Shown here: in pieces, positions 24,428-26,376 of the stretch | Numbering within the stretch: the first letter of the stretch is position 1 | Layout: every line of letters begins with the position of its first letter | Assembly (NCBI GenBank): GCA_020428405.1 | Contig: JAGQMZ010000004.1 | Coordinates: 1-39,899 of the forward strand | Direction of reading: 5' to 3' | DNA length: 39,899 bases | Source of the DNA: Candidatus Saccharimonadota bacterium | GTDB lineage: Bacteria; Patescibacteriota; Saccharimonadia; Saccharimonadales; JAGQNJ01 | Program-made: the position numbers and the translations under genes | The notes under the pieces: model-generated | Told to the model about the DNA's origin: nothing | The model's database searches: none | The model's input: only the letters and a program-made list of their open reading frames with translations

Positions 24428-25066
24428 ATGGGATTATTTGTTAGAAAAGAAAACGAAGAGTCTATTAACTACACTATTAGTGCAAATAATTCACTAGTTA
24501 TTGCTGGTCTAGGTAATCCAGGCAAAGAGTATGAAAGCACCAGACATAACATTGGGTTTGCTTGCTTAGATGCGTTAAAGGATGCTCAGAGTGAATTTAG
24601 TGCTTGGCAAGAAAAAACCGCTATGCACTGTAACATTTCTAGCGGAAACTTTGGCCAAACCAAGGTTATTCTTATAAAACCAACAACTTTTATGAACGAA
24701 AGTGGGCGAGCCGTGCAAGAGGTTTTAAACTTCTATAAATTATCTGCAAAACAGTTAACAGTTGTTCATGATGAGCTAGATATACCTTTCGGTCAAATTA
24801 GAACTAGGCAAGGTGGGGGCCACGCCGGCCATAATGGCATTAGGTCTGTTATTCAATACATTGGTGATGATTTTGGTAGAGTGCGCATTGGCATTAATAA
24901 CCCAGACAAGCCAGAGCAACAAGATAGCGCAGATTATGTACTAGGAAAGTTTACTAAAAAAGAGTCTGCCGAAATGACTAAATTAACTAGAGAAGTTCAA
25001 AGTATTTTAATTGAACTAATCTACCGCGGCGAACTTTACGCTGATACCAGAAACATTCTACTATAA
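24428..25066 (+). CDS. pth: Peptidyl-tRNA hydrolase
   Basis: The enzyme releases peptides from peptidyl-tRNA that has dropped off ribosomes. The protein has 212 residues with an N-terminal extension of about 22 residues before the conserved GLGNPGKEY. Catalytic His40 lies in TRHNIGF and Asp115 in VVHDELD, with TFMNESG and GGGHAGHNG typical of the family. The extension is supported by the -10 box only 8 nt upstream of this ATG. Its 3' end lies 3 bp from the end of the minus-strand RNA gene. Confidence 0.95.
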   Translation: MGLFVRKENEESINYTISANNSLVIAGLGNPGKEYESTRHNIGFACLDALKDAQSEFSAWQEKTAMHCNISSGNFGQTKVILIKPTTFMNESGRAVQEVLNFYKLSAKQLTVVHDELDIPFGQIRTRQGGGHAGHNGIRSVIQYIGDDFGRVRIGINNPDKPEQQDSADYVLGKFTKKESAEMTKLTREVQSILIELIYRGELYADTRNILL

Positions 25067-25068
25067 CT

Positions 25069-25456
25069 AAAAACGACCTGCAGAGGGGGTGGGCACCGCT
25101 GCAAGCCGATTTTAGGGCTTAAGATAAAACTTAAGCCAATAAAACTCCCTTCAAGAGCCCACCCGGCGAAACGTCAGATACAATAACGGTAGATATCCGC
25201 GTCAATCAAATGATTAGCATTTAGCCTCGCCCTCGTTCAGGCCCACCAGTGGCTCATAGACTAACTATGAGGGGTCTTAAAGGGGTTAGTATGTTTTAGA
25301 GCGTTTACTGCTAAAAACAGTGTGTGCTAAGGTAAGTGGAGGGTAACAACTTAAACCAAAGCGCGCTCTAAAACAATCTAACGTAATTTCCGTATAAATA
25401 CGGAAATTAGAATGGGGGTATAAGGTACGTAAACCCATTATGAGGACTTACAGATT
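25069..25456 (-). ncRNA. Structured RNA gene of unknown class, about 388 nt
   Basis: The pth-dprA spacer (446 bp) has no plausible ORF but a complete minus-strand transcription unit. A TTGACA-N17-TAAAAT promoter starts RNA near 25453-25456, and a hairpin plus TCGTTTTT ends it near 25069. Helices in between are 25411-25416:25434-25439 (6 bp), 25384-25394:25399-25409 (11 bp, 4-nt loop), 25293-25303:25364-25374 (11 bp, long range), 25253-25259:25265-25271 (7 bp) and 25116-25123:25130-25137 (8 bp, 6-nt loop). GGGTGGGC/GCCCACCC (25087-25094:25157-25164) pairs the terminator loop with upstream sequence, a pseudoknot. I see no tRNA-like end or tag (tmRNA), no GGAAAGUCC/ACAGAA core (RNase P), and no SRP motif. 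The size resembles RNase P or tmRNA, so a very divergent member is the main alternative. Confidence 0.7.
25077..25105 (-). terminator. Intrinsic terminator of the minus-strand RNA gene
   Basis: On minus, CTTGCAG pairs with CTGCAGG (7 bp, one G-T) and is followed by TCGTTTTT (25069-25076), ending 3 bp from the pth stop codon. The loop contains GCCCACCC complementary to sequence about 70 nt upstream. Confidence 0.55.
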
Positions 25457-25459
25457 GCA

Positions 25460-25488
25460 ATTTTAGCAAAAAAGTTGCATTATGTCAA
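25460..25488 (-). promoter_or_regulatory. Consensus promoter of the structured RNA gene
   Basis: On minus, TTGACA (25483-25488) is followed by a 17-nt spacer ending in TGC and then TAAAAT (25460-25465). It is among the two or three best promoters in the window. It points away from dprA and so cannot serve that gene. Confidence 0.75.
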
Positions 25489-25512: not shown

Positions 25513-26376
25513 ATGCAAAATAGTGGTAATTACCATAAGCTCGATGGGGTAGGGATACCTGAAAAATTACAGGTTATTGATGGCGCCCCAAAAAAATTAT
25601 TCTATGTAGGCAAAGATCCCAATGATATCCTGAGCGAACCATCTGTTGCAATGGTAGGCACAAGAAAACCAACGCCTTACGGGAAAGAAGTTACACATAA
25701 CATAGCTTCTGAGTTGGCTAAACTGGGCGTAGTAATAGTTAGTGGATTGGCCTTGGGAGTAGATACCATTGCCCACAGAGCTTGTCTTGAAGCAAAAGGC
25801 AAAACCATAGCAGTTCTTCCTTGTGGACCAGACAAAGTCTATCCGGCCACTCATAGAGAAGATGCTAAACGAATAGTGCAGCAAGGAAGCACACTTTTAA
25901 CTGAATATCCGCCAGATACGCCTCCGTTAAGGCAGAACTTTATTGCCCGTAACAGATTGGTCTCTGGTTTGGGTGATGTAGTCATAGTTACTGAGGCGGC
26001 AGAGAAGAGCGGTACCTTACATACCGCCAATTTTGCCCTAAACCAATCTAAAACAGTCATGGCCGTTCCCGGCCAGATCAATAGTGCACTTAGCAAGGGC
26101 ACAAATAATTTAATAAAGGCTGGCGCAATACCGATTACATCTGTTGATGACATTATTTTTGAACTTGGCTTATCTAAAACTCAAAACAAGCTATTTGAGC
26201 CCCAAAACCCCCAAGAAAAAGTCGTGATAGACCTGTTAACTCAAGGTGTTAATGATGGCCATGAACTACTTATAAAAAGTGGTCTCCAAACTGCAGAATT
26301 TAATGAGACCTTGACCCTACTTGAGATAAACGGCCAAATCAAACCTATGGGCAGCAATGTATGGACTTTAGGTTAA
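25513..26376 (+). CDS. dprA: DNA-processing protein DprA
   Basis: DprA binds incoming single-stranded DNA during natural transformation and loads RecA. The ATG at 25513 (287 residues) is preferred over a TTG at 25504. The Rossmann-like core is clear: VAMVGTRKPTPYGKEV, VSGLALGVDTIAHRACL, LPCGPDKVYP, NFIARNRLVSGL, VTEAAEKSGTLHTA, and PGQINSALSKGTNNLIKAGA. A short C-terminal winged-helix-like segment (about 215-285) follows. The N-terminal SAM domain of longer DprA proteins is missing. The upstream spacer is shared with the divergent RNA gene. Confidence 0.95.
   Translation: MQNSGNYHKLDGVGIPEKLQVIDGAPKKLFYVGKDPNDILSEPSVAMVGTRKPTPYGKEVTHNIASELAKLGVVIVSGLALGVDTIAHRACLEAKGKTIAVLPCGPDKVYPATHREDAKRIVQQGSTLLTEYPPDTPPLRQNFIARNRLVSGLGDVVIVTEAAEKSGTLHTANFALNQSKTVMAVPGQINSALSKGTNNLIKAGAIPITSVDDIIFELGLSKTQNKLFEPQNPQEKVVIDLLTQGVNDGHELLIKSGLQTAEFNETLTLLEINGQIKPMGSNVWTLG

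Follow-up and report, generated by a model that had tools for sequence, protein, structure and literature searches.

Several large structured non-coding RNAs of bacteria, among them the raiA motif (ModT), OLE, GOLLD and ROOL, have roles that are unknown or only partly known, and the Rsa RNAs of staphylococci are regulatory small RNAs with C-rich loops. The host of the RNA considered here is an ultrasmall parasitic bacterium, a member of Candidatus Saccharimonadota, and the RNA is predicted to be transcribed from the spacer between pth and dprA within a window of 39,899 nt, that is, the whole stretch of DNA that we analysed. Like raiA/ModT (the subject of PMC11706538), OLE, GOLLD and ROOL, the spacer RNA appears to be long, heavily structured and lineage-wide; unlike them it is found only in Saccharimonadia as tested, with another anatomy and other neighbours, and none of their Rfam models matches it. 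RNase P RNA (RF00010) and tmRNA (RF00023) share with it a similar length and the presence of one copy per genome. The lysM-TM7 motif (RF03005) is likewise a structured RNA of the same bacteria, but is annotated as cis-regulatory, spans 138 positions and lies at another place in the closed genome of a relative (G128; one contig, 845 kb). Comparison of these genome sequences leads us to propose, with a probability of about 0.93, that the spacer holds a new class of structured non-coding RNA gene, trans-encoded, with its own promoter and terminator and absent from Rfam; this figure covers the identity of the RNA class, which stands without the loop mechanism discussed below.

The earlier note on this DNA had read from a 446-bp spacer an independent minus-strand transcription unit with a promoter of the form TTGACA-N17-TAAAAT. 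Both readings agree with ours, the first provided that dprA starts at the ATG at 25513, the second in the sequence itself and in the relatives. In particular, the -35 and -10 boxes (Table 1), separated by a 17-nt spacer, match the consensus at 11 of 12 positions and carry an extended TG. A promoter scan of this one genome returned 4 promoter-like sites against 5.4 expected, so that the promoter is not decidable from one genome alone; the same promoter, however, lies upstream of 102/102 distinct copies, a set chosen in part by the TTGAC core but not by the conserved flanks or the -10 box. The -35 box reads TTGACA in 79 of these copies, TTGACT in 18 and TTGACG in 5. Within family f35 (L192-L206), the -35 box sits inside a dyad such as TTGACATAATGTCAA, which could be an operator. 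The ends given in Table 1 for the gene rest on the promoter and terminator positions, on the stability of the fold (z = -7.75) and on homologues of ~250-560 nt that have the same ends. The note's estimate of an RNA of ~388 nt with a terminator 3 bp from the pth stop needed slight revision, to a predicted ~385 nt and to a U run ending 2 nt from the pth stop codon (25064-25066). An automatic terminator scan missed this terminator because its loop exceeds the 8-nt limit of the scan; at least 5 U in 8 nt follow the stem in 98/102 copies. There is no coding gene in the spacer, in which the longest internal ORF is 50 aa, and across the 102 copies the longest ATG ORF has a median of 30 aa and no ORF is conserved. 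We infer steady, high-level production of a stable RNA.

Table 1. Features of the pth–dprA spacer and its flanking genes (window coordinates).
Feature	Position	Strand	Remarks
ncRNA gene (predicted)	25069..25453	-	~385 nt predicted, from inferred transcription start to end of terminator U run
-35 box TTGACA	25483..25488	-	near divergent dprA start
-10 box TAAAAT with extended TG	25460..25465	-	promoter scan and conservation in copies
5' hairpin GUAAGUCC / GGGUUUAC	25429..25451	-	in most of 48 singly folded relatives, sequence changing
Near-invariant 5' linker ACCUUAUACCCCC	25414..25426	-	ACCTT invariant in 48 sequences of alignment A1
Variable 5' arm	25384..25409	-	perfect 11-bp hairpin here; relatives vary in length and sequence
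Long-range helix, 5' strand GUUAG..UUGUUUUAGAGCG	25364..25382	-	pairs with 25285..25303
Apical hairpin AAGU-UGUUACCCUCC-ACUU	25334..25352	-	loop core ACCCUCC at 25344-25338
Long-range helix, 3' strand CGCUCUAAAACA..CUAAC	25285..25303	-	pairs with 25364..25382
Closing helix, 5' strand CCCUUUAAG	25276..25284	-	9 bp with 25155-25147
Helix AGYGAG/CUUCRCU, 5' strand GGGCGAG	25226..25232	-	partner in 25165-25171
Irregular stem of 3' domain, 5' strand GACGCGGAU	25195..25203	-	alignment A2
Irregular stem of 3' domain, 3' strand AUCUGACGUU	25170..25179	-	alignment A2
Helix AGYGAG/CUUCRCU, 3' strand UUUCGCC	25165..25171	-	same helix, alignment A2
G-rich pseudoknot strand GGGUGGGC	25157..25164	-	pairs with terminator loop GCCCACCC 25094-25087, 8 bp
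Closing helix, 3' strand CUUGAAGGG	25147..25155	-	covariation in alignment A2
Optional hairpin GGCUUAAG..CUUAAGCC	25116..25137	-	5' of terminator; many relatives without it
Intrinsic terminator	25069..25108	-	10-bp stem 25108-25099/25083-25074; loop with invariant GCCCACCC (25094-25087); U run 25073-25069
pth	24428..25066	+	convergent neighbour; PF01195, 3.6e-60
dprA	25513..26376	+	divergent neighbour sharing promoter region; PF02481, 5.2e-70

Folding of the minus strand gave a minimum free energy of -137 kcal/mol (z = -7.75), which none of 100 shuffles equalled. The plus strand also folds (z = -5.57), as expected for the complement of a structured strand. Because G·U pairs are tolerated in the strand that is the RNA and appear as A·C on its complement, the 211 G·U against 33 A·C cells among the annotated pairs identify the minus strand as the RNA, and a plus-strand RNA was rejected on this asymmetry. 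The decisive evidence, drawn from aligned relatives, is covariation of a structured RNA beyond controls. To assess this, we used an alignment of 48 copies of the 5' domain (A1) and one of 40 copies of the type-I 3' domain (A2). The structure of A2 comprises 41 pairs, with 91.4% of cells paired; 25 of the 41 have changed on both sides, and the 201 compensatory cells compare with 57.8 ± 10.1 in shuffles. Partner-shifted controls were only 34-52% paired, a comparison that favours the A2 structure in that it was derived from the same alignment. An APC-corrected G-test over 15,985 column pairs, a check that preserves shared phylogeny, placed annotated helix pairs at 7 of the top 10 positions; one of the other three pairs (99-159) belongs to a variable hairpin outside the annotation. 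Conservation and covariation across the relatives are strong, and the spacer combines the general marks of a structured non-coding RNA: covariation beyond controls, a promoter and terminator of its own, and no coding potential.

As shown by covariation in these alignments, the predicted long-range helix carries the apical hairpin and a 9-bp helix closes the 3' domain. The long-range helix has 17 pairs in A1, 5 of them with changes on both sides, and 815/816 cells pair; the 9-bp closing helix (CCCUUUAAC/GUUGAAGGG) has 100% of cells paired and a C-G/G-C swap at its last pair. Within the 3' domain, the AGYGAG/CUUCRCU helix shows covarying C-G and U-A pairs in the 40 relatives, 7 of the 10 column pairs of the irregular stem have changed on both sides in the same set, and so have 9 of the 10 pairs of the terminator stem, the loop of which remains invariant (GCCCACCC). 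An 8-bp pairing of this loop with an upstream strand, which the earlier note had read as a pseudoknot, is indeed present. Its core pairs recur in 37-40 of 40 relatives, GGUGG on the G-rich side being retained together with the loop. The putative pseudoknot is therefore supported by the conservation and complementarity that a real one would show; its pairs are invariant and hence without covariation. Within the order the 3' domain occurs in two forms, types I and II. Type II replaces the AGYGAG/CUUCRCU domain in L015, L020, L036, L039, L046, L047, L126, L138, L145, L146, L149, L150 and L153, and its carriers are scattered among the genomes of the order.

Searches with blastn detected the spacer RNA in 119/198 genomes and 85/122 genera of Saccharimonadales. 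A covariance model of the 5' domain (R2) matched 128 genomes of a 245-genome sample of the class, all in the same order, including the large family f35 (predicted RNA length ~250-400 nt), which blastn had mostly missed. A model of the 3' domain (R1) recovered the RNA from 24 of 36 genomes, most of them picked from among the earlier misses, and, at E ≤ 0.001, from 9 of 32 genomes that belong to other orders of the class. The copies in these other orders are shorter (~210-250 nt) and keep the ACCCUCC hairpin and the CCCUUYAA/UUGAAGGG helix, most with a terminator that has a C-rich loop; dprA flanks 6 and pth 6 of these nine loci. R2 found no match outside Saccharimonadales in a 380-genome sample of the phylum, a result of large searches run with strict filters that could miss divergent copies elsewhere, and there were 0 matches in viral contigs and none in phages. 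The two matches in one genome (G053) are each at the end of a contig and most likely represent a single gene, so a second copy there was rejected. The RNA thus occurs in the majority of the Saccharimonadales sampled; as far as tested, it is by its sequence distribution a Saccharimonadia RNA, and it is probably ancestral to that class.

The neighbourhood of the RNA, in which topA as well as pth and dprA was confirmed with Pfam, bears on the possibility that the RNA regulates the neighbouring competence gene dprA, perhaps by way of the divergent promoter region that the two share. Consistent with such a role, dprA is the divergent upstream gene in 75 of ~90 loci surveyed (a few of which duplicate another under a second id) and mostly begins 20-60 nt away from the start of the RNA; dprA is a neighbour in other orders too. 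However, the RNA lies outside the dprA reading frame and so is not antisense to it, promoter interference would not require dozens of covarying pairs, and in 11 loci (L021, L030-L033, L037, L127-L129, L131 and L144) topA lies directly next to the RNA with no adjacent dprA seen, as judged from the neighbouring ORFs. That the RNA is kept where dprA is not seen argues for a role of its own, and regulation of dprA strikes us as an unlikely account. One further locus (L211, in G170) has the RNA in the opposite orientation with respect to pth and topA, and no adjacent dprA was found there.

The earlier note had left the choice between a highly divergent housekeeping RNA and a new class, and the comparison with known families, together with the covariation, supports the second branch. 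Neither of the sequence-based results that the note had named as refuting it, a strong match to a known family or a lack of conservation in relatives, was obtained. None of the 4227 families of Rfam 15 matched the spacer, even when the filters were permissive and matches up to E ≤ 10 were admitted, and we found no description of the spacer RNA in the literature available as open-access full text. The same genome (G000) carries rnpB (C38:43031-43378, RF00010, 242.5 bits) and ssrA (C93:26552-26950, 75.1 bits) elsewhere, as does G128; the spacer itself has no RF00010 match and no RF00023 or ARAGORN match, and it is accordingly neither RNase P RNA nor tmRNA. A full Rfam scan of G128 returned rRNAs, tRNAs, RNase P RNA, tmRNA, a SAM riboswitch and lysM-TM7, with nothing at Rfam cut-offs at the position of the spacer RNA.

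A further reading is that the spacer encodes a known housekeeping RNA that has diverged strongly; the chief candidates are SRP RNA and 6S RNA, since neither can be recognised in these genomes. Indeed, G128 has no SRP or 6S RNA above Rfam cut-offs, RF00169 was absent from 60/60 genomes of the order (a search in which the B. subtilis control failed, so that absence of SRP RNA is not proven, as was also the case with RF01854), and 6S RNA gave four sub-threshold matches only in 60 genomes of the order. The strongest of these, L259 (G025:C15:7775-7926), scored 39.5 bits with an E value of 5e-7, and weaker ones lie in G030, G051 and G062. Against the identification, the spacer matches neither family at E ≤ 10 (RF00013 in the case of 6S RNA); by eye, the SRP domain-IV hairpin, with its GNRA loop and asymmetric loop, is not among the invariant elements, and the multi-domain structure differs from the long hairpin with a central bubble of 6S RNA. 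Moreover, a search of the six frames of G128 for an SRP-type GTPase motif (Ffh/FtsY) found none, so SRP RNA may not be needed, and the order Saccharimonadales may lack a recognisable SRP. We regard a disguised SRP or 6S RNA as very improbable. A 5' leader or riboswitch-like element can be dismissed almost entirely, since, for all its structure and its closing terminator hairpin, the RNA ends against the stop codon of the convergent pth in the window, pth is convergent in 59/60 of the relatives' loci where it was found, other downstream ORFs vary, and with dprA divergent no conserved co-directional gene lies 3' of it.

If the spacer encodes a new class of trans-encoded RNA, its apical hairpin is a candidate for the site of action. 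The loop of this hairpin reads ACC(C)UCC in 102/102 distinct copies, and its CCUCC has a mean predicted unpaired probability of 0.84, compared with 0.35 over the RNA as a whole; in 99/102 copies the value for CCUCC exceeds 0.6. The loop looks like a mimic of the anti-Shine-Dalgarno sequence, in that it resembles the tail of Saccharibacterial 16S rRNA (AUUACCUCCUUU), a resemblance spotted after the fact. The common form ACCCUCC, read for instance in L199, L150 and L247, has one extra C relative to the 16S tail, and family f38 has CUCACCCUCCUUUU. In four copies (genera g52 and g87) the loop is AGUAUUACCUCCACUU, identical over AUUACCUCC to the 16S tail of G128 (GGAUUACCUCCUUUCU). A pairing between ACCC of the loop and a GGGU adjacent to the closing helix fits many sequences but was rejected, because it fails in genera g52 and g87 and would disrupt the closing helix. 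The rRNAs of G128 contain no 9-nt complement of the loop, so no partner was found among them, and a search of the window for the complement gave a zero-mismatch match only at the RNA's own complement.

Shine-Dalgarno-like motifs precede 3 of 31 gene starts in the window, compared with a background of 14% (starts having been chosen mechanically), so a general blocker of such sites would have few targets there. Several genes of the window have a -10-like box immediately 5' of the start codon, which suggests leaderless mRNAs. In the relative G128, where use was measured genome-wide, such motifs occur at 17% versus 2%, more than in the window, and GGAGGG is not preferred upstream of starts. Like the Rsa RNAs, the spacer RNA has an exposed C-rich loop that could pair with Shine-Dalgarno sequences; it is, however, much larger, with a conserved long-range architecture and a predicted pseudoknot, no targets were found, and Shine-Dalgarno use in the window is low. 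Among possible mechanisms we favour, though only tentatively, the one in which the invariant exposed loop is the working site of a trans-acting RNA and recognises either Shine-Dalgarno-like RNA or a protein that binds the 16S tail. As a near copy of the anti-Shine-Dalgarno tail, the loop would pair with the few G-rich (GGAGG-type) mRNA leaders or would be a decoy for some protein or other factor with affinity for the 16S 3' end, and the helices and the pseudoknot would hold it in place. More speculative still is the idea that the RNA could join RNase P RNA and tmRNA as a third housekeeping non-coding RNA in Saccharibacteria, a mimic of the 16S 3' end that titrates Shine-Dalgarno-like mRNAs or 16S-tail-binding factors.

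Bacterial RNAs so large, so structured and so widely kept are rare, and the well-studied ones belong to central machinery. The spacer RNA appears widespread among ultrasmall episymbionts that form a large group and whose reduced genomes retain little intergenic sequence, and it provides a marker and covariance models for the annotation of Saccharibacteria. Genetic transformation is possible in cultured oral Saccharibacteria (PMC10633639), which makes the role of the RNA directly testable in these relatives. If the housekeeping idea is true, a mimic of the 16S tail would operate in cells that make little use of Shine-Dalgarno sequences and that possibly do without a signal recognition particle.
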